This document shows positions 6,069 through 27,995 of a stretch of DNA of 64,000 nt, one piece after another. This DNA is from Rhodanobacter sp. A1T4. GTDB lineage: Bacteria > Pseudomonadota > Gammaproteobacteria > Xanthomonadales > Rhodanobacteraceae. A model generated the notes under the pieces. That model saw only the letters and a program-made list of their open reading frames with translations, ran no database searches and was not told the origin of the DNA. Positions within the stretch are counted from its first letter, which is position 1. Each line of letters starts with the position of its first letter. The translations under genes and the position numbers were made by a program. The stretch is taken from positions 62,001 to 126,000 of the forward strand of contig NZ_JACHCP010000005.1 in the NCBI RefSeq assembly GCF_014207185.1, given 5' to 3'.

Positions 6069-7078
6069 GGGACTTTCTCTTGGGAAAAATCGAGGAGTGC
6101 GCGCATTTCGCGGCGACGCACCTGGGATTTGAAACGCACGGCGTAACGGCCGTTGGATTGCCCATAACGGCCACGGAACACCGGCACATCCTCGGCAAAC
6201 ACGGTCGTCAATTCAGGCAGATTGAGCGGAATGACATCGCCGACGCGAAGCCATAGAAACTCGCCAATACTCATCTGGGTTTCCAGCAGCAGCGAGCTGA
6301 TCTCCACTTCGGCGTCCATCACTTCTTCGTGCAGGCAGTTGATCCAGCGATCGTCGCGTTCGACACGATCGCTTTGCACGCCAGCGTCCAGCATCGTCCT
6401 GATCGGTTCCACCATCGAGTACGGCAGCGTGAGATGAATTTCGCCACCACCACCATCGAGTTCGATGTGAAAGCGCGACACCACCACGGTCTCGGTGGGG
6501 CTGACAATATTGGCGAACTGCGGATTGATTTCGGAATTGAGAAACTCGAACTGCACCGGCATGACCGGCGCCCACGCTTCGATCATCGACGTGAAAACCT
6601 CCGCCAGCAGGATCTGGATGACGCGGTTTTCCGTCGGCGTGAAATCGCGACCTTCGATGCGTGCGTGATAGCGGCCGTCACCGCCGAAGAAATTGTCGAT
6701 CACGGTGAACACCAGCCGCGGCTCCATCAACACCAACCCGGTACCGCGCAATGGCTTGAGCCTGATCAGGTTGAGATTGCTCGGCACCGCAAGCCCGTGT
6801 ACGTACTCGTTGAACTTGAGCATGCGTACGCCAAGCACCGACACTTCGCAGGTCTTGCGCAGCACACCGAACAATGCAGTGCGAAAGAAACGTGCGAAAC
6901 GATCGTTGATCATTTCCAGCGTGGGCAGTCGACCGCGCACGATGCGATCCTGCTGGGTGAAATCGTATTCGACAATCGTGCCCGGCTCGGGCGGTACGTC
7001 GCTTTCGGTTTCCACCTGGCCATCGTCGACGCCGTTGAGCAGCGCATCGATCTCTTCCTGCGAAAGTAGGTCGCTCAT
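6065..7078 (-). CDS. fliM: FliM, flagellar motor switch protein
   Basis: The 337-residue FliM begins MSDLLSQEEIDALLNGVDDG, the conserved CheY-P binding segment. A middle domain follows (RFARFFRTALFGVLRKTCEV and GTGLVLMEPRLVFTVIDNFFGG), then a SpoA-like C-domain. It links the FliG ring to FliN in the C-ring. It lies 13 bases downstream of fliL and overlaps fliN by four bases. Confidence 0.97.
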   Translation of the reverse strand: MSDLLSQEEIDALLNGVDDGQVETESDVPPEPGTIVEYDFTQQDRIVRGRLPTLEMINDRFARFFRTALFGVLRKTCEVSVLGVRMLKFNEYVHGLAVPSNLNLIRLKPLRGTGLVLMEPRLVFTVIDNFFGGDGRYHARIEGRDFTPTENRVIQILLAEVFTSMIEAWAPVMPVQFEFLNSEINPQFANIVSPTETVVVSRFHIELDGGGGEIHLTLPYSMVEPIRTMLDAGVQSDRVERDDRWINCLHEEVMDAEVEISSLLLETQMSIGEFLWLRVGDVIPLNLPELTTVFAEDVPVFRGRYGQSNGRYAVRFKSQVRRREMRALLDFSQEKVP

Positions 7079-7091
7079 CGCTATGGTTTCC

Positions 7092-7604
7092 TCACTGCAT
7101 CACGAAGCTGGTGAAGTACAGCGCGTCGACGCCGGGTTTGCCGAGCTTGTCGGCGACAATCTTGCGCACTGCCGTCAGCGCTTCGGCCTGCAGCTTCTGT
7201 TTGCCGGCGGTCGTGCTGAGCTGATCGAACGTCTGGCTGCTAAACAGCATCACCAGCGCATTGCGGATGACCGGATCGTTGTCCTTGATCGTCTGGATCG
7301 CTGCGGCATCGCGCGACATCACGGTGACACCGACCTGCAGGTAGCGCGTGGCATCGTTGTTGTCCTGAAAATTCACCACGAACGATGGATCCAGCGGCAA
7401 ATAGACGTCCACCGCCTTGACTGCCGGCGCGGCAACGGCACCGCCCTCGGCGTTGGCCTGGGTCGAGCGCGAATGGAAAAAACAGAAACCGCCCGCACCA
7501 AGTGCAACCACCAACACGCCCCCCACGATCACCATCGTGCGCTTGCCGCCTTTCTTGGCGACGACAGCGGGCGATTCAACTTCAATACTTTCAGCGTTAG
7601 CCAT
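7092..7604 (-). CDS. fliL: FliL, flagellar stator-associated membrane protein
   Basis: A 170-residue single-pass protein: a short cytoplasmic N-terminus with KKGGKR, one helix (TMVIVGGVLVVALGAGGFCF), then a periplasmic FliL domain (YLPLDPSFVVNFQDNNDATRYLQVGV) ending in YFTSFVMQ. FliL rings surround the stator units. The frame extends to a TTG at 7616, but a GAGG sits directly against that TTG, so the ATG at 7604 (MANAESIEVE) is preferred. It is the first gene of the fliL-flhA operon and has its own sigma54 promoter. Confidence 0.94.
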   Translation of the reverse strand: MANAESIEVESPAVVAKKGGKRTMVIVGGVLVVALGAGGFCFFHSRSTQANAEGGAVAAPAVKAVDVYLPLDPSFVVNFQDNNDATRYLQVGVTVMSRDAAAIQTIKDNDPVIRNALVMLFSSQTFDQLSTTAGKQKLQAEALTAVRKIVADKLGKPGVDALYFTSFVMQ

Positions 7605-7681
7605 GAACAAACTCAACCTCTATGAATGACCCGACGCCATCGCTTCGACGAAACACCTACGAGCGAATCAACTGGAATGAA

Positions 7682-7699
7682 GAAGCCCGAACGGGCTTC
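7682..7699 (-). other. Perfect hairpin at the start of the predicted fliL transcript
   Basis: Seven-base arms GAAGCCC and GGGCTTC close a four-base loop (GTTC on the transcript). The hairpin starts only a few bases after the start predicted from the sigma54 site at 7714-7729. It has no U-run after it, so it is not a classic terminator. It may protect the 5' end or end read-through from fliK. Confidence 0.55.
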
Positions 7700-7713
7700 A
7701 ATGAAAACTATTT

Positions 7714-7729
7714 AGCAAACGTCATGCCA
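7714..7729 (-). promoter_or_regulatory. Sigma54 (-24/-12) promoter of the fliL operon
   Basis: On the minus strand the sequence is TGGCATGACGTTTGCT, with GG and GC ten bases apart, against the RpoN consensus TGGCACG-N4-TTGCW. It lies about 110 bases upstream of the fliL ATG with no gene between. Confidence 0.85.
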
Positions 7730-7944
7730 TCGATACGAATCGCGCTGTGAAGCGATCTGCCGGATAGGTGGAATCACGGGCAACGTTTTATTGACGCGTG
7801 TCGACAAGCAGACGCGACAACGGCGCAGTGATTCCGTCAGAGCGGGCAATGGCGAAAAACGCCCGTAGAAAGCTGACTCATGCAGCACGGTTCGCGCGCT
7901 GACGAAAACCAGGATTCATCGATGCCGTTTCGTCAAACACGCAG

Positions 7945-7966
7945 CATTCCGGCCTTCGCCGGAATG
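7945..7966 (-). terminator. REP-like palindrome downstream of fliK
   Basis: Nine-base perfect arms CATTCCGGC and GCCGGAATG enclose a four-base loop, 26 bases after the fliK stop. The ATTCCGGC/GCCGGAAT core resembles dispersed palindromic repeats common in proteobacteria. There is no strong U-run, so it is a weak terminator or 3'-end stabiliser at best. Only this one copy was noticed in the window. Confidence 0.5.
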
Positions 7967-7991
7967 AAGGAAAAGAGAAACTCGCGATGAC

Positions 7992-9305
7992 TCAGGCGAA
8001 GGCGTCGACCAGGCCTGTGGCCAATGGCTGTGATGATGTAGCGACGTCGGCATCGATCGACTCGGCTTCGTTCGTCTTGGCGGAGGCAGGGGATGTTTGT
8101 CCCTGCGAACTGCCGAACTGTTGCTGTGCAGTCTGCTGACCGACCGTGGCCTGACCCAGCGACAAGCCATGCCCGCCGAGCATCTGGTTGAGCTGGTCCA
8201 GGCTTTGCTGCACAGCCGCGACCGCCGCCGGATGCTGCGCCGAGAAAACCACGTCGACACGACCGTGCTCGACACTCACCTTCACGTCGAGTGGACCGAG
8301 TTCCTGTGGATTCAGACGGATCTGCGCCTGCTTGATGTCCTGCCCACCCAGCCATGTGACCTGCTGACCGAGCTCCTGCGAAAAACTGGGTGAAGTAACG
8401 CTCGCATTGATGTTCAGGCTGTGCGGTGTCACGTTGCTGGTCGCAGGTGCGCCGAGAACCGGCGTGGCAAGCGCGCCACGCAAGCTGGCCAGATCGCCCG
8501 TGTCCAGGGTCTGGCCAGCGGTTGTTGTTGCAGGAGTCGCGGCGATCAATGCGTTGTGACCGCTGCCGAGGAAATTGCTGACGGAAGTCTGTGCCGTCGT
8601 ATCGACGCTTTGCGCAAGCACGCTGCCAACGGCGTCGTTGTCATCGCTCGCGTCATCAGCATCGTCCGCATCCGCGTCGTCCGTGGCCGAAAACGCGCCG
8701 GCCGGTTTACCCAGCGTCTGACCCGATGCCATGGTGCCCGTGGTGGTGGTCGCCGGCAGTACGCCGGATGCCGCCGTGCTGCTGGCGCCTTGCGTCGCAG
8801 CTTGATTATTTGAGGGCGGAAGCGGAACAGGAGCACCGATCACCGCCGTCGGCACGGCGCCTTGCTGCACTGGCTTGATGTCAGCATCCTGGGGCGGTGT
8901 TTTGCCTGCAGGCGCCTTGCCATCGGTAGACGCTGTGGTCGCCGCGTTTGCATCGCCCGACGATTGATCGATCAGGCCAAGCACCTGCGTGGCTGCCGAG
9001 GTCGAGCCATCGGCGACATCGGTGTCGTCCTGGGTGCAGGCACTGGACGAGGTGCCCGTTTGCGCATGAGTTGCATCGTTGTTGGTGGCTGATGTCGTAC
9101 TGGAGACAGCCGCTTTGCTTGTGGATGACGTGTCCGTGGACGAACGGCTGTTCGATGCTTGCGACTGCTGCTGCGCGTCATGCAGGTGTGCGTTGAATGC
9201 CGTGCTATCGGCACGCTGACCGACCGGATCGGCCGACGGGCGCGACGTGGTCGAGCTCGCCGGGCTGGCAGTACGAAGAGCGGGTAACGGAAGGGTGCTG
9301 CTCAT
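7992..9305 (-). CDS. fliK: FliK, hook-length control protein
   Basis: The 437-residue product has a long low-complexity Ser/Thr/Ala/Asp-rich N-terminal ruler region (to about residue 290). The conserved C-terminal Flg_hook domain follows: WLGGQDIKQAQIRLNPQELG, then PLDVKVSVEHGRVDVVFSA. FliK is exported as a ruler and triggers the FlhB switch. It is separated by 69 bases from fliJ and by a long gap from fliL, and it has its own sigma54 site. The poor sequence complexity of the ruler is normal for the family. Confidence 0.93.
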   Translation of the reverse strand: MSSTLPLPALRTASPASSTTSRPSADPVGQRADSTAFNAHLHDAQQQSQASNSRSSTDTSSTSKAAVSSTTSATNNDATHAQTGTSSSACTQDDTDVADGSTSAATQVLGLIDQSSGDANAATTASTDGKAPAGKTPPQDADIKPVQQGAVPTAVIGAPVPLPPSNNQAATQGASSTAASGVLPATTTTGTMASGQTLGKPAGAFSATDDADADDADDASDDNDAVGSVLAQSVDTTAQTSVSNFLGSGHNALIAATPATTTAGQTLDTGDLASLRGALATPVLGAPATSNVTPHSLNINASVTSPSFSQELGQQVTWLGGQDIKQAQIRLNPQELGPLDVKVSVEHGRVDVVFSAQHPAAVAAVQQSLDQLNQMLGGHGLSLGQATVGQQTAQQQFGSSQGQTSPASAKTNEAESIDADVATSSQPLATGLVDAFA

Positions 9306-9343
9306 GCATGGACACTCGTGCTAAACGGATTCCCGATGACCGC

Positions 9344-9359
9344 AGCAAAAACCGAGCCA
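9344..9359 (-). promoter_or_regulatory. Sigma54 promoter of fliK
   Basis: The minus strand reads TGGCTCGGTTTTTGCT, with GG and GC separated by ten bases and a full TTGCT -12 element. It lies in the 69-base gap between fliJ and fliK, about 39 bases upstream of the fliK ATG, suggesting fliK is transcribed separately from fliE-J. Confidence 0.75.
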
Positions 9360-9374
9360 GACCAGCGCCTCGAC

Positions 9375-9806
9375 TCAAGCCGAGCCGACGGGGCGTCGGC
9401 GGTGTTGCATGCGCTCGTCGATTTCGGCCTGTTCCTGACGCTGCTCGCTCTGCTGCTCCTGTGTGCGATAGCGCCCAACCACGCTATCCAGCGCCTTTTC
9501 ACGCGCGTGCGCCTGCAACCATTGCAGGCGTGTTGTCTCGGTCAGTCGACGCTGACGTTCCACTTCGCGGCCTTGCTGGACGATCGCCTGATCAATGCGC
9601 TCGACGAATTGTTGACGGTTCAGCAACGCACTGACTGTCAGACCGCCGACGCCAAGGCCGTATTCCTCACGATAGCGTTCCAGCTCATCCAGCTGCTGCT
9701 GTACATAAGCCAACCGTTGCTGCTGTTCGACAAGGCGCTGCAACGCCTCCTGCTCGCGGCGTTCGGCCTGATCCACCGCCGGTTGCAATCGCTCCGAACG
9801 CGTCAT
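9375..9806 (-). CDS. fliJ: FliJ, flagellar export chaperone escort / ATPase stalk
   Basis: A 143-residue, almost wholly charged coiled-coil protein ([20 protein letters not shown] and similar runs throughout) with the FliJ-like motif [12 protein letters not shown]. FliJ sits in the FliI hexamer and contacts FlhA. Its start overlaps the fliI stop as ATGA. It is the last gene of the fliEFGHIJ run. Confidence 0.92.
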
Positions 9807-11170
9807 GCCATGACCTCGGACACGAGTTCACCCAGACGTTCCTGCGCCTCGCGCAGCGACACCGGCTCGTCGACTTCCTGCTGGAGAAACGTGAGCATCC
9901 TTGGCCACATCGCGATAGCCTGATCCACTTTGGGATCGGCGCCTTTCTGGTAAGCACCCACAGCGATCAGATCGCGCTGCTGGCGATAGGCCGAATACAC
10001 CTGGCGGAAACGCTGCGCAGCACGCATCTGGTCCTTGTCGATCACCGCCGGCATCACGCGGCTGATCGACGCTTCAATATCGATGGATGGATAGTGACCC
10101 GCCTCGGCCAAATCGCGCGACAGCACGATATGACCGTCGAGAATGGCACGTGCGGCATCGGCGATCGGATCGTGACGGTGATCATCGCCTTCGGTCAGCA
10201 CGGTATAGAAGGCCGTGATCGAACCGCGCCCCTCGGCATCGTTGCCGGCACGCTCGACCAATGCCGGCATCAGCGCAAATACCGAGGGTGGATAGCCCTT
10301 GGTTGCTGGCGGTTCGCCGATCGCCAGCGCGATCTCGCGTTGTGCCTGCGCATAGCGAGTCAACGAATCCATCAGCAACAACACTCGCTGGCCGCGGTCG
10401 CGGAACCACTCCGCGATCGCCGTGGCGTACTGCGCACCACGCAATCGTTTGAGCGGCGGCGCATCGGCCGGAGCGGCAACGATCACGGCGCGTGCGCGAC
10501 CTTCGTGGCCCAGCGTCTGTTCGACGAATTCCTTTACTTCACGACCGCGTTCGCCGATCAAGCCGACCACGACCACGTCGGCATCGGTATAGCGCGTCAT
10601 CATGCCAAGCAAGGTCGATTTGCCGACGCCTGAGCCGGCGAACAGGCCCAGACGCTGGCCACGCCCGACCGTAAGCAAGGCATTGATCGCGCGTACGCCG
10701 GTATCCAGCGGTGTGTCGATTGGTTTGCGCGACATCGGATTGATGGGAGCGCGCTTGAGTGCCGCATGCTCATCGACATCGAGCGGGCCCAAGCCATCCA
10801 GCGGCACACCATCGGCACCAATCACACGGCCCAGCAACGCCTCGCCTACCGGCAAGCCTCCAGCGCGCGAGCACGGACGCACACGCGCATTCGGCAGCAC
10901 ACCGTGCATTTCCGTCGCCGGCATCAACAGCAAGCGCTCGTCTGTGAAACCCACTACCTCAGTATCCAGCACCGTACCGTCAGCGGTGTCGACCAGGCAA
11001 CGCGAACCCAACGCGGCTTCGCATCCTTCGGCTTCCAGAGTCAGCCCAACCACGCGGCGCAGACGACCCTCCACCGTGAGCATCGGCACTACCACGGCCC
11101 GCTGCGCACGTTTCGCCAGCTGCTGTTGCCAGCGTCGCCGACGCGCTTCGGGCGATGGCTCCGCGCTCAC
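9803..11170 (-). CDS. fliI: FliI, flagellum-specific export ATPase
   Basis: A 455-residue F1-type ATPase. The P-loop [17 protein letters not shown] is near residue 175, the Walker B region is [20 protein letters not shown], and the signature [17 protein letters not shown] follows. It powers substrate unfolding and export together with FliH and FliJ. ATGA overlaps join it to fliH upstream and fliJ downstream. Confidence 0.97.
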
Positions 11171-11808
11171 GCAACCACCTCGTCGATACCGTCGTCGACA
11201 TCGTTGCCAAGCACGGCATCAATCACCGTGGCCAGGCGCGTATCCACGCGGGCATCGAGCCGCGAGCGCTCGCTTTCCAGCATGCAGTCGCCACGACTCA
11301 GCGTCGGCTTGGCGCCGAGCCGCCATTGCGGTTCGGTTGCACCGAGTTCGCGCAGCAGAATCAGATCGTCAGGATGAACCCATACACGCAATTCACGGGT
11401 GGCCGATGGCAGCGCCGCGGCGGCCTCGCGTACGGCCAGTTCGATCAGCGATGGATCGAGCTGCAACTCACGACCCACCACACGACGCGCCATCACCGTG
11501 GCAAGTCGTGCGAGCTCCTGTTCGGTGATGTCATCAAGCGCATCGAGAGGCCGCGCCGCGGCGGAACAGAGGGCCTCGAGACGGGCCAGTTGCTCATCCA
11601 TCTGATGTTTGGCCACGGCACGCCCCTCGGCAAGCCCGGCGGCAAACCCTTCTTCACGCGCCAGACGCTCGATTTCCTCCAGCTCGAATACCGTCGGCCC
11701 CGGCGGCGGCGGCGCGGGCTCAGTGAGTACGGGCAGAACAGCACCGATCTGCGGCAGCTCCCAGCGCTCGAAAGCGACAAGCTTGTCGCGGCTGAGTACG
11801 CCGGCCAT
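11167..11808 (-). CDS. fliH: FliH, negative regulator of the FliI ATPase
   Basis: A 213-residue protein with a Pro/Glu-rich N-terminus, a helical middle ([20 protein letters not shown]) and the C-terminal FliH/V-ATPase subunit E-like domain containing [17 protein letters not shown]-type sequence near residue 140. It links FliI to FliN. The start overlaps the fliG stop by one base (TGATG). Confidence 0.94.
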
Positions 11809-12818
11809 CAGACGAACTCATCGCCGTTGGCAGCGAGACTGATCTGACCGGCGTCGGCGAGTTTGCGTGCGATGGTCAGCACTTCCTTCTGCGCCGCGTC
11901 GACTTCGCTGAGTTTGACGGGTCCCTTGACTTCAAGGTCGTCGCGCAGCATGTCGGCCGCACGCTTGGACATGTTGCCGAAAATCTTTTCGCGCACCGCC
12001 GGCTCGGCACCTTTCAGGGCGGTGATCAGGCGCGCCGAAGGCACCTCACGCAACAGCGCTTGCATGCTGCGGTCGTCGAGATCGGCGAGATCCTCGAAGA
12101 CGAACATCAATTCTTCGATGCGTCCACCGAGACCGGCATCCTGGCCGCGGATGGCGGTCATCAGCTCCGCTTCGCGGCTCGTTTCCATCGCGTTGAGGAT
12201 GTCAGCCGCCGCCTTGAGACCGCCCACGCTGGCCGACTTCAGTTTGCTGGAGGTACCTGAAAACTGGCGCTCCATGATTTCATCGAGCTCATTGAGCGCA
12301 TGGGGCTGGACACCATCGAGATTGGCGATGCGCATCACCGCGTCGCTGCGCACGCGAGGCGGCAGATAACCGATCACTTCGGCGGCCTGGTCCGGTTCCA
12401 GATGGGCCAGCACCAGCGCGATGATCTGCGGATGCTCCATGCCGATCATCTCGGCGATGGCCCGGCTTTCCATCCATTTCAGCGACTCCAGGCCCTTGGT
12501 CGAACGGCCCAGCAGGATACGGTCGATCAAACTGCCGGCCTTGGTTTCACCCAGGGCGCTGACCAGCATCTTGCGGATGTATTCCTCGGTGCCTACGCCC
12601 AGCGACGTCTGTCGACCGATGTCATCGTTGAGTCGGCCGAGTACGTTCTCGACCTGCTCACGCGACACGTTCGTCAGCGTGGCCATCGCGGTACCCACGG
12701 CTTGCACGTCACGCGCACTGAGATGCTTGAGCACCTCCGCAGCGTCCTGCTCACCCAGCGTGAGCAGCAGGATGGCGGCGCGCTGGGCGCCACCGATGTC
12801 CATCGGCTCAACTGCCAT
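11808..12818 (-). CDS. fliG: FliG, flagellar motor switch / torque-generating rotor protein
   Basis: The 336-residue FliG has an N-terminal FliF-binding domain (GAQRAAILLLTLGEQDAAEV), the EHPQ motif in the middle domain (GMEHPQIIALVLAHLEPDQ), and the charged C-terminal domain that contacts the stator (FVFEDLADLDDRSMQALLRE). The ATG at 12818 has AGG five bases upstream and overlaps the fliF end by 11 bases. A second in-frame ATG at 12803 would remove the overlap. Confidence 0.97.
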   Translation of the reverse strand: MAVEPMDIGGAQRAAILLLTLGEQDAAEVLKHLSARDVQAVGTAMATLTNVSREQVENVLGRLNDDIGRQTSLGVGTEEYIRKMLVSALGETKAGSLIDRILLGRSTKGLESLKWMESRAIAEMIGMEHPQIIALVLAHLEPDQAAEVIGYLPPRVRSDAVMRIANLDGVQPHALNELDEIMERQFSGTSSKLKSASVGGLKAAADILNAMETSREAELMTAIRGQDAGLGGRIEELMFVFEDLADLDDRSMQALLREVPSARLITALKGAEPAVREKIFGNMSKRAADMLRDDLEVKGPVKLSEVDAAQKEVLTIARKLADAGQISLAANGDEFV

Positions 12819-16394: not shown

Positions 16395-16737
16395 TACCGC
16401 CGAACGAACACGGGACGATCCCAGACCGTGTTGCCCCTTCTGTGTCAGCGATCCGTCGCGACACCTGCGATAGGTTTCAGCAAGAAGGGTGCCAAAAAAT
16501 TTACGGCGGCATCATCCGCGCGCGGAAGCGTGGAGCGCGACTTGATAAACATGTCGCAAGAAGTTGCACGAAAAGTGCGTGTAGACGTTTAATTTAGATC
16601 GATATTTATGAAAGTAAAAACAGGTCAAGGACGACTGTCCAAGACGCCGGATGAAAACGGTTACGTCAAAATTTTCTCGCACCGACGCCCCAATAAGTGA
16701 TGACCGTCACGTTTTTAAAGTCGAGGCATCCGCGTCT
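16395..16737. other. Noncoding gap between PilZ gene and fleQ
   Basis: About 340 bases with no supported gene. It holds the sigma54 site for fleQ at 16479-16494. Beyond that it is an AT-rich stretch around 16590-16680, a plausible site for activator or IHF contacts, though no specific motif was recognised. Confidence 0.5.
16479..16494 (-). promoter_or_regulatory. Sigma54 promoter upstream of fleQ
   Basis: The minus strand reads TGGCACCCTTCTTGCT, with GG-N10-GC spacing and a perfect TTGCT -12 element. The expected transcript would have a leader of about 80 bases before fleQ. A sigma54 site before the sigma54 activator implies positive or negative autoregulation. Confidence 0.8.
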
Positions 16738-19788: not shown

Positions 19789-21024
19789 TTACTGCAGCAA
19801 CTTGAGGATCTGCTGTGGCACGGAGTTGGCCGTGGCCAGCACCGAGATACCCGCCTGCTGCAATACCTGCGCCTGGCTTAACTGGGCAGTTTCTGCAGCA
19901 AAATCCGTATCTTGGATAGAGCTCTGCGAAGCGGTCAGGTTGGTCTGCTGAGCACTCACCGTGGCAATGGTGGACTGGAAGCGGTTCTGCACGGCGCCAA
20001 GCGTACTGGAGAAGTTACTCACCGTGGTCAGGGCCGCATCGATGCGCGAGATCAGCTGGTTGGCATCGTCCACCGTCAAAACATCGCCACCTTGCAGCGA
20101 ACCCGAAGCGGTCAGTGCTTCGCCATCCGTGTAAGCCGCACCGGTCGCGGGCAGACCTGCACCGGCGGTAGCACCGAAACCCGTGGCTGCCGTGGTGAAT
20201 GTGGTGAAGCCGGCTGCCGCCGAACCGGCCGAACCGGTAACCGTGGCACCGTTCACGGACAGCTTGCCCGACGAATAGAGGTTGATACCGCCGTTGGCGT
20301 TCACGGCAGCGCTGACCCCGTTGATGCCGGCGGCGTTGATGTCATCGGCCACGTCCTGCGCACTGCTTGCAGTGACATTGCCGGTGAAGGTGTACGACGT
20401 ACCGTCGGCGCCGGTGATCGACAGGCCGCTCAGGCTGAGCGTGCCGCCGCTTGCACCGGCCGCCGTGACGAATGCCCCGCTGAGGTTGCCGGTGGACACT
20501 TCGGATATCTGACCGACCTGGCCAGCGGTAACGCCCTGGCCCAGCTGCACATTGATCGACTGACCGACGTTTGCACCGATCTGGAACGACAGCTGGCTGG
20601 TGGAACCATTGAGCACGTTTGTGCCGTTGAAGCTGGTCTGGTTGGCGATACGGGTGATTTCCGACAGGTACTGCTGCACGGAAGTGTTGATCGCCGCGCG
20701 GTCGGAAGCCTGATACGTACCGTTGGCGGACTGCACCGCCAGATCGCGAACAGACTGCAGGTTGGACGTGATTTGCGTCAGCGCCGAACCGGCGGTTTGC
20801 GACAGGTTGATGGCGTCGCTGGCGTTTTCGCTGGCCTGGCCTAGACCGCCGATCTGCGTCTGGAAGCGGGTGGCGATGGCAAAGCCTGCAGCATTATCCG
20901 CAGCGCTGTTGACCTTCAGACCCGAGGACAGATCTTCCGTTGCGGTGCTCAGCTGGCTCGACGACTTGGTCAGATTGTTCTGGGCTTGCAGCGACGAGAT
21001 GTTGGTATTGAGTACGAGTGACAT
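19789..21024 (-). CDS. fliC: FliC flagellin
   Basis: A 411-residue flagellin. The N-terminal D0/D1 starts MSLVLNTNISSLQAQNNL and the C-terminal D1/D0 ends with LQQAGISVLATANSVPQQIL. The variable centre is rich in Ser, Thr, Ala and Gly, offering O-glycosylation sites. The open frame extends to 21222, but the ATG at 21024 has AGGAGA six bases upstream and gives the conserved flagellin start. It is the only flagellin gene in the window. It is driven by a sigma28 promoter, terminated by a strong hairpin, and lies beside the large glycosyltransferase gene. Confidence 0.97.
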   Translation of the reverse strand: MSLVLNTNISSLQAQNNLTKSSSQLSTATEDLSSGLKVNSAADNAAGFAIATRFQTQIGGLGQASENASDAINLSQTAGSALTQITSNLQSVRDLAVQSANGTYQASDRAAINTSVQQYLSEITRIANQTSFNGTNVLNGSTSQLSFQIGANVGQSINVQLGQGVTAGQVGQISEVSTGNLSGAFVTAAGASGGTLSLSGLSITGADGTSYTFTGNVTASSAQDVADDINAAGINGVSAAVNANGGINLYSSGKLSVNGATVTGSAGSAAAGFTTFTTAATGFGATAGAGLPATGAAYTDGEALTASGSLQGGDVLTVDDANQLISRIDAALTTVSNFSSTLGAVQNRFQSTIATVSAQQTNLTASQSSIQDTDFAAETAQLSQAQVLQQAGISVLATANSVPQQILKLLQ

Positions 21025-21113
21025 AGTGAGTCTCCTGGAACCGATAGCCGGTTTGTAAGTTGTGCTTATTCCGGCGGGGTTCTCAGAATGGTGTACCGAC
21101 CGCCTCGAAAACT

Positions 21114-21140
21114 TTTTCGGCCATACGGGGAAATACTTGA
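21114..21140 (-). promoter_or_regulatory. Sigma28 (FliA) promoter of fliC
   Basis: The minus strand reads TCAAGTAT, 11 bases, GCCGAAAA, against the consensus TAAAGTTT-N11-GCCGATAA (6/8 and 7/8). It lies about 90 bases upstream of the fliC ATG. Confidence 0.78.
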
Positions 21141-21450
21141 GCGCTGGACTTGATTTTTTTATTTTCCCGGGGAAACCCGTGTTTGGAGCGGACTCAGCAG
21201 ATCGCGTCTCCGCCGATATCAAGCGTTCCCGAAAGCTCGGTTAGCGGCAAGCGATGAAGACATGCCGATAGCGGCAGCCAGACGGCAAGCCTGAACTCTT
21301 TATTGCACCGCATCTATATGTTCGCGACGCTGCGCAATACGCAATATCAGCATCCCGCTACTCGCACTCCCCTCATTCGTATCTCGCGTGCCGCACCGAC
21401 CCAGGTCGGATACCGAACGCATGACGCTCCCATCGGCCAGACGCTGTCGT

Positions 21451-21466
21451 TGGCACCAAGCTTGCT
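21451..21466 (+). promoter_or_regulatory. Sigma54 promoter of the flagellin glycosyltransferase gene
   Basis: TGGCACCAAGCTTGCT matches the RpoN consensus with GG-N10-GC spacing and full -24 TGGCAC and -12 TTGCT elements. It lies 88 bases upstream of the ATG at 21554. Confidence 0.82.
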
Positions 21467-21553: not shown

Positions 21554-24500
21554 ATGCGTTGTGTATTGGCGGTCTGTGCCGTATTCAAGGACGAGGCAGC
21601 CTATTTGCGTGAATGGGTGGAATTTCACCAGTTGATGGGCGTGGAGCGTTTTTACCTCTACAACAACGGCAGCGACGATCGCTATATCGACGCCGTGCAG
21701 ATGCATATCGACGCGGGCACCGTGGTGCTGCACGAGTGGCCGCGTCGCCCGGCCCAGCTCGATGCCTACGAACACTGCCTGCGCACCCACGGCGCGGAGA
21801 CGGACTGGCTTGCCTTTATCGATGTGGACGAATTCCTTTTCTCGCCGAAAGCCAAGCTATTGCCCGATGTGTTGGCGCAGTACGCGGCTTATCCCGGCGT
21901 GGGCGTTAACTGGGTCATGTTCGGCTCGGCCGGGCACATGCAGAAACCAGCCGGAGGCGTGCTGGAAAACTATCTGCGGCGAGGACAGTTGGACGGCGGG
22001 CTGCACTATAAGCATCTAAAGCTCGCGGACGGCAGCTTTCGTCCGGAGAACTCGCACGTCAAAAGTATCGTGCAGCCGTCGAAGGTGATCGGCTGCGCCA
22101 ACGCTCACTTCATGCGCTATGCCGACGATGCGCGCGCGGTGGATGAGAACGAACAGCCGATCGATGGTCCCTTCTCCACCAAGGTATCGGTTGATACGCT
22201 GCGCATCAACCATTACTGGAGTAAGTCGGAAGAAGAGTGCCGGCACAAATTCAGCCGCGGCTTCGCCGATGGCTCCGGCGCGCGCGACTGGAAGGAATTC
22301 CTCGCCCACGAGCAGATACTGAACACCACGCACGACGACATCGTGCTGCGAGTGGTCGCACAGCTCGCCGTGTTGCCGCCCGCGTGGCCGTTGGAAAGCT
22401 TCCAGCAAAACGACGAAGGCGTATGGCACTCGCCGTTGCGCGACCGTCCGCCGCACACGGCCATACACACCGCAGCCACACGGCTGTTCGATCTGATGCG
22501 AGACGCGTCGGATACCAGCCTGTACTCGCCCGTGCTGGCGAAAGCCATCGAAGATCGCACCAGCGCGCTGCAGCTCTCGCCGCGACGCGCCAATTTCTTG
22601 CATGCGCTCGACGGCCTCGATAAGCACACCTGCGTGCTGGAAATCGGTTGTGGCGGCGGCGCGGTCACCCAGGCTTGGATCGAGCGCGGGTGCCACGTCG
22701 ATGCGATCGAATTCGCGCCACACTGGGCCCGCGTTGCCGCGGCGCGACTGCACGAACAGCCCAAGGCAAGAGTTTTCCAGGCCAGCCTGCGCGAGTTGAC
22801 GTTGCGGCCCGAATACGACGTGGTGTCCATGGCATTCGGCGACGACTACGCCGAGGCGTGGCCGCGTGGCGAATCGATTGAAGAGGCGATCAAAATCGCC
22901 GCCTCGGCACTCAAACCCGATGGCTTTCTACTGCTGGCGACATCCCAGACTTCGCCAGACAGCTGGGACAGCCGCATGCCATCGCGCAACCAGATGGCAG
23001 ACGTGCTGAAAAAAGCCGGCTTTTCCGGCATCGACACGCAGCTGGCTTTCCCCGATGCGCTGCTGCCTGAAGTGCTGATCGCCGAACCATTGCCCGCGCA
23101 AGCGGCCCACCTGCGCGTGGACGACCTGATTGCGCAACGCCCCTTGCTGCGCGACGGGGGCAAGCAAGCGACACGATGGGAGAGGCACGTCGAAACGGGT
23201 ACGTTGGCGCAGCACGCGCCCGGCGTGATGCTGGTGGCACGCCGAGATGGCGCTGCATCGCCCCTGCGCGCCGATCGCGTGGCCCAGGTGTTCGCCGACG
23301 ATCGCGTGCCGGCACTCAATACCGTCACCGACTATCTCCTGGCCGAGGAGACCATCCAAGTCGTTCCGCGTCCGATGTTGCCCGGTTCGTCATGGAGCAC
23401 GACGGCATTTGAATCAATCATGGACACCCGCGTGCTGACGCCCGGTCGTTCGCTGCTGGTGAAGCTTCGCCAGGCGATCCAGGCACAACGGACCGACCGC
23501 CTGATTGCGCTGCTGCGGAAGTGGGGGGCGCTGGTTTACGCCCAGGCGGACGACGAAGAGAAGATACCGGCCGAATGGCTCGACGCCGTGCCAGCGAGCA
23601 TGAACCTGCACGACTACGATAGCGTTGTTTTTCGAGGTGGCCAATGGCGCGCCCGTCAGCGTATCGAAAAGCAGATTCCGGTCTACGTGGGGCTATGGCA
23701 GATCGCCTACGAAAGCGGCATGGAGACGCTGCTCGGACTCGCGGCGCCGATCGACCGCGTGACGTGGCTGTGCAAGCGACTCTTGCTGGACGCGTCGCCG
23801 GAATGGATCGAGCACGGTCGCCATATCAACGAATCGTTCGCACGCGAAATTCACGATGCCGATTGCTGGACGCGCACGGATCGTCATTTGAAGATCGTGC
23901 CGGAGTGGCTGCTCCCGCCGCCGCCATCGGATACCTACAAGCAGTGGCAGGCGAAACTGCAGCTTGGCGACGTCGCCGTTGCGCAGGCAATAAACCGTAT
24001 CGAAAAAAAGGGTGCGCCGCCAAAGATGCAGCTGCTGCTTATCGACGCGGATAACGACGCCGAGGCCGTGTTACGCAGCGTTGCCAGCCTCGATACGCAA
24101 CAGTATCCGCACCGCGCGATCAGTGTCGTGTCGACCGAAGATCCTCTCGATCTGATCGAACGCGTCAACAATGCAATAGCCGCCTGCGATGCCGACTGGA
24201 TACAGCTCGTCTACGCTGGCGACCTGCTGCATCCGGCTTCGCTGCTGCTGTTGGCCGAGCGCATCACCGCGATGCCATATTTGACGGCAGTCTATGTCGA
24301 CGAAGACACCTGCAACAATGGCGTGTTCGAAAACCCGATCTTCAAGCCCGACTTCAATCTCGACCTGCTTCGCAGCTATCCGTATACAGGCCGATCCATA
24401 GCCTTCGGACGGCGACGTTGCATGGAGCTCGGCGGCTTGAACGAGGCCTACGGCGAACTCGGCGTTCACGATCTGCTGTTCCGCCTGATCGAAACGGACG

Positions 24501-26560
24501 GCCTGCACACCATCGGCCATATCGGCGAAGTGATGTATCGCGCCGCACTGCCTTACGGTCAATGGCTCGCCTCCGACGCGGTGAAGGCGTACAGCGCCGA
24601 GATCGTTTCCAGTCATCTGCAGCGGATGAATATCGCGCATACGATAGAGGCGGGCGTACTTCCCGGCTTCAATCGCGTGCTCTACCAACATGCGCGTCAG
24701 CCGCTGGTCTCCATCATCATTCCCACGAAAGACCAGCTGCCGATGCTGAATGGCCTGATCGATAGCCTGTTGTCCAAGACGAGCTATCTCAACTACGAGT
24801 TGCTGATCGTGGACAACAGCAGCGAGGAGCCTGCGGCGTGCGCCTATCTGGATGGCATCGAACGCCTCAATAGCAACCAGCTGCGCATACTGCGCTATCC
24901 GCACCCATTCAACTATTCGGCGATCAACAACTTTGCTGCGGCACAGGCGCGCGGCGAATACCTGATCCTGCTCAATAACGACACGGCGGTGCTGCATGAC
25001 GACTGGATCGAGGCGCTGCTCAATCACGCACAGCGACCGGAGGTCGGCATCGTGGGCGCCAAGCTGCACTATCCGGATGGACGGATTCAGCACGGCGGCG
25101 TAATACTCGGACTGCGCGGACCGGCCGATCACCCGTTCATCGGTTCGCCGATGGAAAATGACGGCTACATGCATCGCCTTCGCGTCGACCAGAATTACAC
25201 CGCGGTCACCGCGGCTTGCCTGATGATCCGCAAATCCGTCTACAGCGAAGTCGGCGGTCTGGACGAACGCAACTTCAGAGTGTCCTACAACGACGTCGAC
25301 CTGTGCCTGAAGGTGCACGCGGCTGGCTATCTGACCGTCTGGACGCCTTATGCGCGGCTCATGCATGTCGGCAGCGTCAGCCAGACCAAGGTCGACAAGA
25401 CGGCGCAGGAAACAAAGCTGAAACGTTTCCAGGGCGAACAAAGCGCGATGTATCGCAAGTGGCTGCCGCAGCTGGCACGCGACCCAGCCTACAGCATCAA
25501 CTTCAGCATCGATGGCAGCGGGTTTGAATTGAATCCCGATCACGGCAATGCTTGGCAACCGTTCGCCAATCCATTGCTGCCGCGTTTGTTTTGCGTCGCT
25601 GCGGATGCACACGGATGCGGTCACTACCGTGTTCGGCAACCGTTCGCATCGATGCAACGCGACGGACTCGTCGAAGGCATGATTGCCGGCTTGCATCTAT
25701 CGCCGGTGGCGATGGAACGTTTCCAACCCACGTCGCTCGTACTACAGCGGCAAGTGACCGAACAACAGATCAGCCTGCTCGAAAGCTATCGCGACTTTTC
25801 CCGCGCGTTCAAAGTATACGAACTGGACGACTACATCCAGCAAATACCGGTGAAGAGTCCGTTCCACAGCGTGATGCCCAAGGACATCGTCAAATCGCTG
25901 CGGCGCGCGCTAGCGACGGTTGATCGCTTCGTCGTCTCCACCGAGAGGCTGGCCGAACAGTTCCACGGGTTCCATTCCGACATTCGCCTGGTAGAAAACC
26001 GTCTGCCGGTCGACTGGTGGAGCGGGCTGAAAAACCAGCGTCGCGTCGGTCGCAAGCCCCGCGTCGGCTGGGGTGGTGGCGCAAGCCATCGCGGCGATCT
26101 GGAATTGATCGCCGACGTCGTTCGCGATCTGGCCGACGAAGTGGAGTGGGTGTTTCTCGGCATGTGCCCCGACAAGCTGCGCCCCTACGTGCATGAATTT
26201 CATGTAGGCGTGCCTATCGAGGAATACCCGCGCAAGCTCGCCTCGCTCAATCTCGATCTTGCCTTGGCGCCGCTGGAAGACAACCTGTTCAACGAGTGCA
26301 AGAGCAACTTGCGCCTGCTTGAATACGGCGCCTGCGGTTTTCCGGTGATCTGCACCGATATCGTCTGCTATCGGAATGATTTGCCGGTGACGCGCGTCAA
26401 GAATCGCTACAAGGAGTGGGTCTCGGCCATTCGTATGCATCTGGCCGACCTCGATGCCACTGCCGAAGCGGGCGATGCGCTGCGCGATACGGTGCAAAGG
26501 CATTGGATGTTGAAGGGGGATATGCTGATCGATTGGCGAAATGCCTGGTTGCCGAATTAA
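21554..26560 (+). CDS. Five-module glycosyltransferase/methyltransferase, probable flagellin-glycosylating enzyme
   Basis: A 1668-residue soluble multi-domain protein. Residues 1 to about 290 are a GT92/GT2-like domain (CAVFKDEAAYLREWVEFH, FIDVDEF). Residues about 350-520 are a SAM methyltransferase (VLEIGCGGGAVTQ). Residues about 820-1010 are a GT2-like module with YVDEDT and FKPDFNLDLLRS. Residues about 1050-1290 are a second GT2 module (VSIIIPTKDQ, LLNNDTA, DVDLCLKVHAAGY). Residues about 1415-1668 are a GT-B/GT1-like domain (VGWGGGASHRGDLE, LRLLEYGACGFPVIC). GAGG precedes the ATG by seven bases. Position beside fliC and a sigma54 promoter imply flagellin glycan assembly. Glycan and order of action are unknown. 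Confidence 0.88.
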   Translation: MRCVLAVCAVFKDEAAYLREWVEFHQLMGVERFYLYNNGSDDRYIDAVQMHIDAGTVVLHEWPRRPAQLDAYEHCLRTHGAETDWLAFIDVDEFLFSPKAKLLPDVLAQYAAYPGVGVNWVMFGSAGHMQKPAGGVLENYLRRGQLDGGLHYKHLKLADGSFRPENSHVKSIVQPSKVIGCANAHFMRYADDARAVDENEQPIDGPFSTKVSVDTLRINHYWSKSEEECRHKFSRGFADGSGARDWKEFLAHEQILNTTHDDIVLRVVAQLAVLPPAWPLESFQQNDEGVWHSPLRDRPPHTAIHTAATRLFDLMRDASDTSLYSPVLAKAIEDRTSALQLSPRRANFLHALDGLDKHTCVLEIGCGGGAVTQAWIERGCHVDAIEFAPHWARVAAARLHEQPKARVFQASLRELTLRPEYDVVSMAFGDDYAEAWPRGESIEEAIKIAASALKPDGFLLLATSQTSPDSWDSRMPSRNQMADVLKKAGFSGIDTQLAFPDALLPEVLIAEPLPAQAAHLRVDDLIAQRPLLRDGGKQATRWERHVETGTLAQHAPGVMLVARRDGAASPLRADRVAQVFADDRVPALNTVTDYLLAEETIQVVPRPMLPGSSWSTTAFESIMDTRVLTPGRSLLVKLRQAIQAQRTDRLIALLRKWGALVYAQADDEEKIPAEWLDAVPASMNLHDYDSVVFRGGQWRARQRIEKQIPVYVGLWQIAYESGMETLLGLAAPIDRVTWLCKRLLLDASPEWIEHGRHINESFAREIHDADCWTRTDRHLKIVPEWLLPPPPSDTYKQWQAKLQLGDVAVAQAINRIEKKGAPPKMQLLLIDADNDAEAVLRSVASLDTQQYPHRAISVVSTEDPLDLIERVNNAIAACDADWIQLVYAGDLLHPASLLLLAERITAMPYLTAVYVDEDTCNNGVFENPIFKPDFNLDLLRSYPYTGRSIAFGRRRCMELGGLNEAYGELGVHDLLFRLIETDGLHTIGHIGEVMYRAALPYGQWLASDAVKAYSAEIVSSHLQRMNIAHTIEAGVLPGFNRVLYQHARQPLVSIIIPTKDQLPMLNGLIDSLLSKTSYLNYELLIVDNSSEEPAACAYLDGIERLNSNQLRILRYPHPFNYSAINNFAAAQARGEYLILLNNDTAVLHDDWIEALLNHAQRPEVGIVGAKLHYPDGRIQHGGVILGLRGPADHPFIGSPMENDGYMHRLRVDQNYTAVTAACLMIRKSVYSEVGGLDERNFRVSYNDVDLCLKVHAAGYLTVWTPYARLMHVGSVSQTKVDKTAQETKLKRFQGEQSAMYRKWLPQLARDPAYSINFSIDGSGFELNPDHGNAWQPFANPLLPRLFCVAADAHGCGHYRVRQPFASMQRDGLVEGMIAGLHLSPVAMERFQPTSLVLQRQVTEQQISLLESYRDFSRAFKVYELDDYIQQIPVKSPFHSVMPKDIVKSLRRALATVDRFVVSTERLAEQFHGFHSDIRLVENRLPVDWWSGLKNQRRVGRKPRVGWGGGASHRGDLELIADVVRDLADEVEWVFLGMCPDKLRPYVHEFHVGVPIEEYPRKLASLNLDLALAPLEDNLFNECKSNLRLLEYGACGFPVICTDIVCYRNDLPVTRVKNRYKEWVSAIRMHLADLDATAEAGDALRDTVQRHWMLKGDMLIDWRNAWLPN

Positions 26561-26750: not shown

Positions 26751-27995
26751 TCAACTCTGAATGTAGTTAAACAGACTCAATCCCTGCACCTTGGCGAACA
26801 CCTGTTGCGAAGCCTGTAATGCCGTCGACTGCAACGAAAGATTGCTGATCGCCGTCGCCATATCCACGTTCTGCACATCCGACAATGCGCTCTGATAGGT
26901 CACGCTCAAATCCGAATAGCTCGACTGCTGCTGCTGCAGGGTATCGATACGGCTTCCCACCGATACCTGCGTATTGGAAACGCTGGTCATCGCCTGGTTC
27001 AGCGATTCGAGTTGCCGGTTGAGGGTATTGTTCAGTGACGTCGAGTTGGCGTTACCGCTTTGCAGCGCGGTGATCATGTTGTTGAGCGTGGTGAACACGT
27101 TTTGCGTGTTCTGGGCCGTATCGGCATTCACGCTGACCGTGTCGCCGGCGGCGGGGGAGCCGCTCATCGTCACCGACAAGCCGTCGAACGTGATGCTGCC
27201 GCCGTCCTGGTACGTGCCGGTGATGGGATTGCCATTGGCATCGTTGACCGGATTGCCGTTGGCGTCGGTCACCGCGTAGGTACCGTTGGCGCCAAAAGTG
27301 ATGGTGTCGTTGACCGGACCCGATGCATTCGCAGCGGTCCATGCGGTGGTGTCGGTGACACTGTTGGCGCCCACGACAAGCGTGCCGGTATTGCCGCTGC
27401 CGGCGCTGGCCACGAAAGAGCCGTTGCCGGCAGGTATGTCCATGAACACCGAACTGCCCGGATCGGAATTGGCCACCTGCAGGCCCTGCCCGATCGCCGT
27501 GAGCGACTGCTGATTATTGCCGGCGTAGGTCACCGATCCGGAGCTGCTCTGCACGAATGGCGTAGCGGTGGTGCTAGTGCCGGCAAAGAGAGGTGAACCG
27601 TTGCCGTCGGTGGTGTTGGCCAACTGCACCAGCTGATCGCGCAGCTGCGTCAGCTGCGTCGCCATGTTGCTCAGGTCGCTGGAGGACAAGGAGCTATTGA
27701 TGGCGCTCAGACCGATGTCGTTGGCGCTGTTGAGCAAATTGGTCACTGAGCTGAGTGCCGACGTTTCGGTCGACAAACGCGTGTTGGCGGCGGTGATGTT
27801 GTTGGTATAACCGGTGTTTTCGGCCAGTACGTGATTGAGGCTGACCACCTGCGCCGCACCGGTAGGATCGTCGGACGGCACGCTGATGCGCAAGCCCGTG
27901 CTCACCTGATTCTGCGTGTTGGACAGCTCGCCCTCCTGGTTGAGCATCGTCGTCACGGATTGCTGGTACATCCAGCTGGTTGAGATGCGCATCAT
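26751..27995 (-). CDS. flgL: FlgL, hook-filament junction protein (HAP3)
   Basis: A 414-residue protein with flagellin-like ends (MMRISTSWMYQQSVTTMLNQ; SLQSTALQASQQVFAKVQGL). Its variable middle holds a beta-rich module (DTITFGANGTYAVTD, SGSPAAGDTVSV) that resembles one in the FlgK of this strain. A short internal repeat encodes DANGNPVNDANGNP. It starts two bases after the flgK stop and is the last gene of the flgB-L operon. The 190 bases between it and the convergent glycosyltransferase gene hold nothing clear. Confidence 0.94.
   Translation of the reverse strand: MMRISTSWMYQQSVTTMLNQEGELSNTQNQVSTGLRISVPSDDPTGAAQVVSLNHVLAENTGYTNNITAANTRLSTETSALSSVTNLLNSANDIGLSAINSSLSSSDLSNMATQLTQLRDQLVQLANTTDGNGSPLFAGTSTTATPFVQSSSGSVTYAGNNQQSLTAIGQGLQVANSDPGSSVFMDIPAGNGSFVASAGSGNTGTLVVGANSVTDTTAWTAANASGPVNDTITFGANGTYAVTDANGNPVNDANGNPITGTYQDGGSITFDGLSVTMSGSPAAGDTVSVNADTAQNTQNVFTTLNNMITALQSGNANSTSLNNTLNRQLESLNQAMTSVSNTQVSVGSRIDTLQQQQSSYSDLSVTYQSALSDVQNVDMATAISNLSLQSTALQASQQVFAKVQGLSLFNYIQS

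Follow-up and report, generated by a model that had tools for sequence, protein, structure and literature searches.

The window, the whole 64-kb stretch of DNA analysed here, comes from a genome of 5.08 Mb in 31 contigs. Within a flagellar gene cluster of this window, a gene for a multi-module protein lies between fliC on one side and flgL on the other (Table 1). Beyond fliC follow fliD, fliS, a PilZ-domain gene, a gene for a FleQ-like sigma-54 activator, fliF, fliG and a fliI-like ATPase gene, and beyond flgL follow flgK, flgJ, flgI, flgH and further hook and rod genes. Scanning the neighbours on the fliC and the flgL side revealed no sugar gene, and no genes like PA1088–PA1090 of Pseudomonas aeruginosa were seen beside the gene.

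Table 1. Features at the locus. Positions refer to the window, residue numbers to the 1668-residue protein.
Feature	Position	Strand	Basis and remarks
fliC (flagellin)	19789..21222	-	Longest ORF; MSLVLN is the likely start, giving 411 residues
Sigma-54 (-24/-12) promoter site, exact	21451..21466	+	103 bases 5' of the ATG
Multi-module protein gene	21554..26560	+	Uninterrupted ORF, 1668 residues; coordinates include the stop codon
GT92/GT2-like domain, residues 1-235	21554..22258	+	Pfam; DVD within FIDVDEFLF
Class I SAM methyltransferase domain, residues 336-515	22559..23098	+	Pfam, fold matches, SAM motif
Region X, residues 516-770	23099..23863	+	Downstream of the methyltransferase in 12/12 proteins having X
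GT-A-like domain with YVDED, without DxD, residues 822-1024	24017..24625	+	Model, alignment
GT2 domain, residues 1049-1304	24698..25465	+	Pfam; NND and D1247/D1249 intact
C-terminal domain, residues 1340-1668	25571..26557	+	Probably GT-B; model, Pfam below cut-off, alignment
flgL	26751..27995	-	Pfam flagellin N and C regions; followed by flgK

Both the single chain of 1668 residues and its position beside fliC had been proposed in the original prediction and were confirmed. Among the matches listed, eight further loci (L037–L043 and L045) encode the whole protein with 72–76% identity over residues 1–1668, aligning with it from end to end. Seven of them come from as many Dyella species, the eighth from a MAG that bears the label Eremiobacteraeota. 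The contig of the latter (L037, labelled Candidatus Eremiobacteraeota) carries a Dyella-like flagellar cluster, with FliC and FlgK 80% and 79% identical to those of the window, and was probably wrongly binned. A chance reading frame or an assembly fusion is ruled out by these eight relatives, which come from separate records. Mean pairwise dN/dS, calculated from 36 of 36 pairs for each module, amounts to 0.14 for the GT92-like domain, 0.23 for the methyltransferase, 0.20 for region X, 0.24 for the middle GT-A-like domain, 0.08 for the GT2 domain and 0.11 for the C-terminal domain. Since all means fall between 0.08 and 0.24, every module is under purifying selection, and the values of the N-half (0.14–0.23) rule out that this half is decaying.

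The promoter site upstream of the gene was assigned by comparison with the sigma-54 consensus. Two exact sites occur in the 64-kb window versus 0.12 expected from shuffled sequences, and two were reached by 1 of 100 shuffles. The second site (16479–16494, minus strand) is located 5' of the gene for the FleQ-like activator. All eight full-length relatives possess an exact site at −106 to −109 from the ATG. Only 9 of 82 family loci (the best 80 of 562 plus L007 and L008) have a site with no more than one mismatch in the 300 bases upstream; hence, the promoter of the window type is a Dyella feature rather than a family-wide one. At the locus of Dyella RRB7 (L044) an exact site at position 6726 is barely within the longest ORF. 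In G004, a genome of the same genus as the window host, a one-mismatch site precedes the aminotransferase gene that lies in front of the enzyme gene.

At the N-terminus, the Pfam family GT92 matched residues 7–197 with 76.9 bits (cut-off 23) and the GT2-like model PF13704 also matched residues 12–100. The DxD is present in all nine proteins bearing this domain, to which strong matches of our own GT92-like profile are confined among the matches listed; weak ones occur in three GT2-type N-parts from Pseudomonas (L072, L096, L112). The AlphaFold model of residues 1–833, calculated from an alignment of 11 sequences, reached a pLDDT of only 61.4. The GT92-like part is poorly predicted therein (pLDDT mostly under 50) and the methyltransferase with region X mostly ranges from 60 to 93. 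Solved SAM methyltransferases, including WbdD, are the best fold matches of this model. Together with a Methyltransf_25 match at residues 361–457 (38.5 bits, cut-off 27) and the SAM motif GCGGG, profile, fold and motif all agree with a class I SAM methyltransferase. Region X, mostly well predicted by AlphaFold, had been overlooked in the original prediction and matched no known Pfam family. Among the matches listed, methyltransferase and X occur together in 12 proteins, i.e. the nine GT92-bearing ones (window included), Dyella RRB7 (L044), Pseudomonas L059 and Andreprevotia L055.

The SAM motif is intact in eight of the nine GT92-bearing proteins; in that of Dyella acidiphila (L041, about 7001–11995) it is short by one residue, in frame. 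Furthermore, about 23 residues found in the methyltransferases of L044 and L059, with a motif that is also present in L055, are absent from all nine. Because of this missing stretch and the residue lost in L041, methylation is uncertain. Methyltransferase and X might thus no longer methylate and be kept as a scaffold or in another role, leaving the glycan unmethylated, and the methyltransferase has one of the higher dN/dS values of the protein. We nevertheless regard this explanation as unlikely, with the motif intact in eight of nine proteins, a dN/dS far below 1 and solved SAM methyltransferases as the best fold matches.

Across the class, methyltransferase and X together were matched in 33 of 369 genomes besides the host's own (E <= 1e-6), in each case by the methyltransferase part only and never by X, and the GT92-like part was matched in just one of the 369, with 28% identity. 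Within the genus the N-half was found in the host genome only, of 45 searched (E <= 1e-8), and no stretch of the viral contigs matched six exact peptide patterns. A recent foreign origin of the N-half is unsupported by base composition, its GC3 being 0.75–0.81 versus 0.72–0.77 for the core.

The remainder of the chain (residues 775–1668) was modelled by AlphaFold from an alignment of 37 sequences, with a pLDDT of 90.4 and a pTM of 0.85. The model consists of two GT-A-like domains and a two-part alpha/beta C-terminal domain, the limits of which were read from its secondary structure. Its best solved fold matches are the tandem GT-A enzymes chondroitin polymerase and heparosan synthase, the 50 listed matches referring to the model as a whole and being unsorted by domain.

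In GT-A enzymes the DxD forms the metal-binding site. The middle GT-A-like domain, which contains YVDEDT (about residues 822–1024), has no Pfam match, and D-x-D was found at positions 886–890 in none of the 82 aligned proteins (the best 80 of 562 plus L007 and L008). YVDEDT was also considered as the active site itself and rejected, because the expected DxD position directly before it lacks D-x-D in all 82. As the metal-binding DxD is missing throughout, this module is probably not a working glycosyltransferase, and its sequence suggests a domain that is probably catalytically inactive. The following GT2 domain matched Pfam at residues 1053–1231 with 77 bits (cut-off 23.3). In the same set of 82, its NND is kept in 35 proteins, always along with D1247 and D1249, and is missing in 47. 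Pseudomonas relatives such as L071–L116 have NND replaced (e.g. by NPY or NAF) and the C-terminal domain still conserved, as if the active site of the GT2 domain had been given up. Judged by invariant columns, no other part of the family is as conserved as the C-terminal domain, whose signature is kept in 79 of the 82 proteins, the exceptions being L046, L052 and L067. The best score of this domain against GT-B-type Pfam families (PF13524, 18.7 bits) is below the cut-off of 25; the model, with two alpha/beta halves, suggests that it is probably GT-B.

Of the five modules originally predicted, the GT92-like domain, the SAM methyltransferase, the GT2 domain with NND and the C-terminal domain are thus present, the first three with Pfam matches above cut-off, whereas the YVDEDT module has no match and does not stand as a working GT2. 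With its DxD lacking in 82 of 82 proteins, the count of four working glycosyltransferases is not borne out.

The 82 relatives have a core of about 840 residues in common, from about residue 825 on. Many of the best 80 loci (of 562 confirmed candidates) are from close Pseudomonas, so that family counts are not independent. A FliC or FlgL gene lies near 77 of these 80; none is contained in the fetched stretch of L052, L061 and L066. Dyella monticola possesses, besides its full-length copy (L039), a second copy (L052), in which the C-terminal signature is altered and around which the fetched stretch holds no flagellar gene. The N-parts comprise 324–1415 residues, some of these lengths being upper limits because the ORFs were taken at their longest; the longest N-part (L067) holds a second core-like stretch. 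Single-linkage clustering sorted 83 N-parts into seven groups of 58, 12, 5, 3, 3, 1 and 1. In a joint scan of 54 N-parts, Pfam GT2 was matched in 52. A further 20, scanned singly, contained up to three GT2 stretches, GT61, GT-B group 1, RgpF, CDP-glycerol-phosphotransferase-like and methyltransferase domains, except that in two of these 20 (L047 and L049) Pfam matched nothing. The N-parts of the eight full-length relatives were covered by our own profiles. The architecture of the family, our main finding, is a constant C-terminal core preceded by exchanged N-terminal parts (GT2, GT61, GT92-like, GT-B-like, methyltransferase, CDP-glycerol-phosphotransferase-like or RgpF).

How often this happened was traced on a tree of 49 of the 83 cores, from which 34 Pseudomonas rows had been dropped beforehand and in which the label GT2 stands for every row outside the other groups. 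The seven labels together require 12 changes versus a least possible number of 6. Shuffled labels required 21.0 on average and came as low as observed in 0 of 200 cases. For methyltransferase and X the tree requires four changes, all four forced by starred branches. Since the labels are much more clustered than shuffled ones, the exchange is repeated but not free. On this tree the N-part changes partly independently of the core.

In G004, the site occupied by the gene in the window holds an enzyme of 1183 residues with a core 69% identical and a GT2 N-part without detectable match to that of the window. Genes for a DegT aminotransferase and a hexapeptide acyltransferase adjoin it, and FliC, FlgL and FlgK are 73–79% identical to those of the window. 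From the few loci opened, our impression is that donor genes seem to go with the modules: the phosphotransferase-like module has methyltransferase, HAD and cytidylyltransferase-like genes alongside in L058 and genes for PEP phosphomutase and a TPP enzyme in L055, and the enzyme of L061 has NeuB and cytidylyltransferase genes alongside. The Andreprevotia locus L055 (418–12028) encodes 2061 residues with phosphotransferase-like, methyltransferase plus X and RgpF modules; genes for PEP phosphomutase/nucleotidyltransferase and a TPP enzyme adjoin it, and the flagellin is possibly decorated with phosphonate. L061 (4–9394) encodes a member of 1593 residues, and formyltransferase and methyltransferase genes adjoin it as well. 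Its N-part begins with ~450 residues that have no Pfam match and may represent a nonulosonic acid transferase.

Large flagellin glycosyltransferases are already known, and so are an enzyme of this kind with a phosphotransferase fused to it (PA1091) and flagellar glycosyltransferases that include methyltransferase domains (PMC4875605 for the last). The P. straminea locus L058 comprises flgL, methyltransferase, HAD, cytidylyltransferase-like gene, core enzyme with phosphotransferase-like module and fliC. This matches the PA1088–PA1091 set of methyltransferase, HAD, cytidylyltransferase-like protein and fused glycosyl- and phosphotransferase (PMC11833859, PMC10714395). There, the flagellin of a pa1091 mutant is unglycosylated, and pa1088, pa1089 and pa1090 mutants retain only the core deoxyhexoses (PMC11833859, PMC10714395). 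Like FgtA (PA1091, type-b, P. aeruginosa PAO1), the window protein would be a flagellar-cluster glycosyltransferase fused to a second, decorating activity, which in PA1091 is a phosphotransferase (PMC11833859, PMC10714395). In contrast, by comparison of descriptions, the window protein carries the GT92-like domain, methyltransferase and X before the core where PA1091 has its phosphotransferase, and its gene lacks the PA1088–PA1090-like neighbours.

FGT1/FGT2 and VioT (1173 residues) of P. syringae pv. tabaci are likewise described as large flagellin glycosyltransferases; Fgt1 puts rhamnose on serine, and the glycan has a methylated sugar (PMC3927599). In contrast to the window protein with its fused methyltransferase domain, methylation is there due to a separate VioM (241 residues) from a separate island (PMC3927599). 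Enzymes of GT41/GT2 type with methyltransferase domains from enterobacterial flagellin glycosylation islands also combine glycosyltransferase and methyltransferase in one flagellar-locus protein but mostly belong to another family, GT41 (PMC4875605). Fgi-1 (327 residues) is, by its description, an unrelated small enzyme (PMC7874193).

In summary of these comparisons, a large glycosyltransferase gene lies beside fliC or flgL in the flagellar cluster in the window and at 77 of the best 80 loci, and we consider it reasonably probable that the product of the window gene is a flagellin glycosyltransferase of FgtA/FGT type, with the constant core as primer and the N-part as decorator. Kinship to PA1091, FGT1 and FGT2 is drawn from synteny and domain make-up, by way of the PA1091-like locus L058. 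The likeliest division of labour, with the core initiating the glycan and the N-part decorating it, follows from the core being the part common to the window protein and the L058 enzyme, together with the mutant phenotypes of the PA1091 set.

In detail, the enzyme would be made under sigma-54 control together with the flagellum. The C-terminal domain would set the first sugar on Ser/Thr of FliC, because it is the sole catalytic-looking part that is nearly constant; this sugar would probably be a deoxyhexose such as rhamnose. The GT2 domain (NND) would then add a second sugar, the GT-A domain without DxD may have a structural role, and the N-terminal cassette of GT92-like domain, methyltransferase and X may add and/or methylate an outer sugar. 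As no sugar gene was seen beside the gene, donors would come from general metabolism. RmlD is over the cut-off in the host genome, which makes dTDP-rhamnose plausible; along with the published systems, it suggests rhamnose as the first sugar.

The original prediction went further and assumed that all modules are active and act from the N- to the C-terminus, so that module order reflects the order of sugars. Every module is indeed under purifying selection, and the DxD of the GT92-like domain, GCGGG and NND are intact in the window protein. However, the middle domain lacks DxD in all 82 proteins, and a variable N-part before a constant C-terminal end is the reverse of what an N-terminal first step would leave. 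The order claim is thus unsupported, and the model appears improbable. That the enzyme is a surface-polysaccharide glycosyltransferase merely located in the flagellar cluster is very improbable, given the flagellar genes beside 77 of the best 80 relatives, the promoter site of flagellar sigma-54 type and the flagellin phenotype published for the PA1091-type enzyme (PMC11833859), even though surface-polysaccharide clusters commonly have GT2 domains and residues 890–1338 have a 40% identical counterpart within an 829-residue frame at another place in the genome, some 7 kb away from rmlD.

The sequence is best read as coding for a fused enzyme that assembles a flagellin glycan and perhaps also methylates it. 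The idea that one polypeptide does both agrees with a single gene that has its own sigma-54 site and no sugar gene by it; its methylation part is uncertain. That several genes are needed in other bacteria holds for the published systems, with separate genes or partial fusions (PMC11833859, PMC10714395, PMC3927599, PMC4875605). What appears to be new is the combination of a single constant core with front modules that can be exchanged, and the form GT92-like plus methyltransferase plus X. For neither was a paper found, in a search that reached few subscription journals and is therefore weak evidence of absence.

We tentatively propose, at somewhat less than even confidence, that many Proteobacteria rewrite their flagellin glycans by swapping the module at the N-terminus of a single giant enzyme. 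A core that stays constant would recognise flagellin and start the glycan, and the modules plugged in at its front (glycosyltransferases, methyltransferases, phospho- or phosphonate-transferases and possibly a nonulosonic acid transferase), exchanged with their donor genes, would set the outer structure. The window protein would be a self-contained form that needs no adjoining donor genes. If this is true, one could test which of the domains attaches the first sugar, a question described as hard to resolve in the fused enzyme of P. aeruginosa (PMC11833859). The domain make-up of one gene would then reveal the outer structure of the flagellar glycan, and flagellar surface variation would gain a clear genetic source, namely exchange of the front half of one protein at a fixed site.
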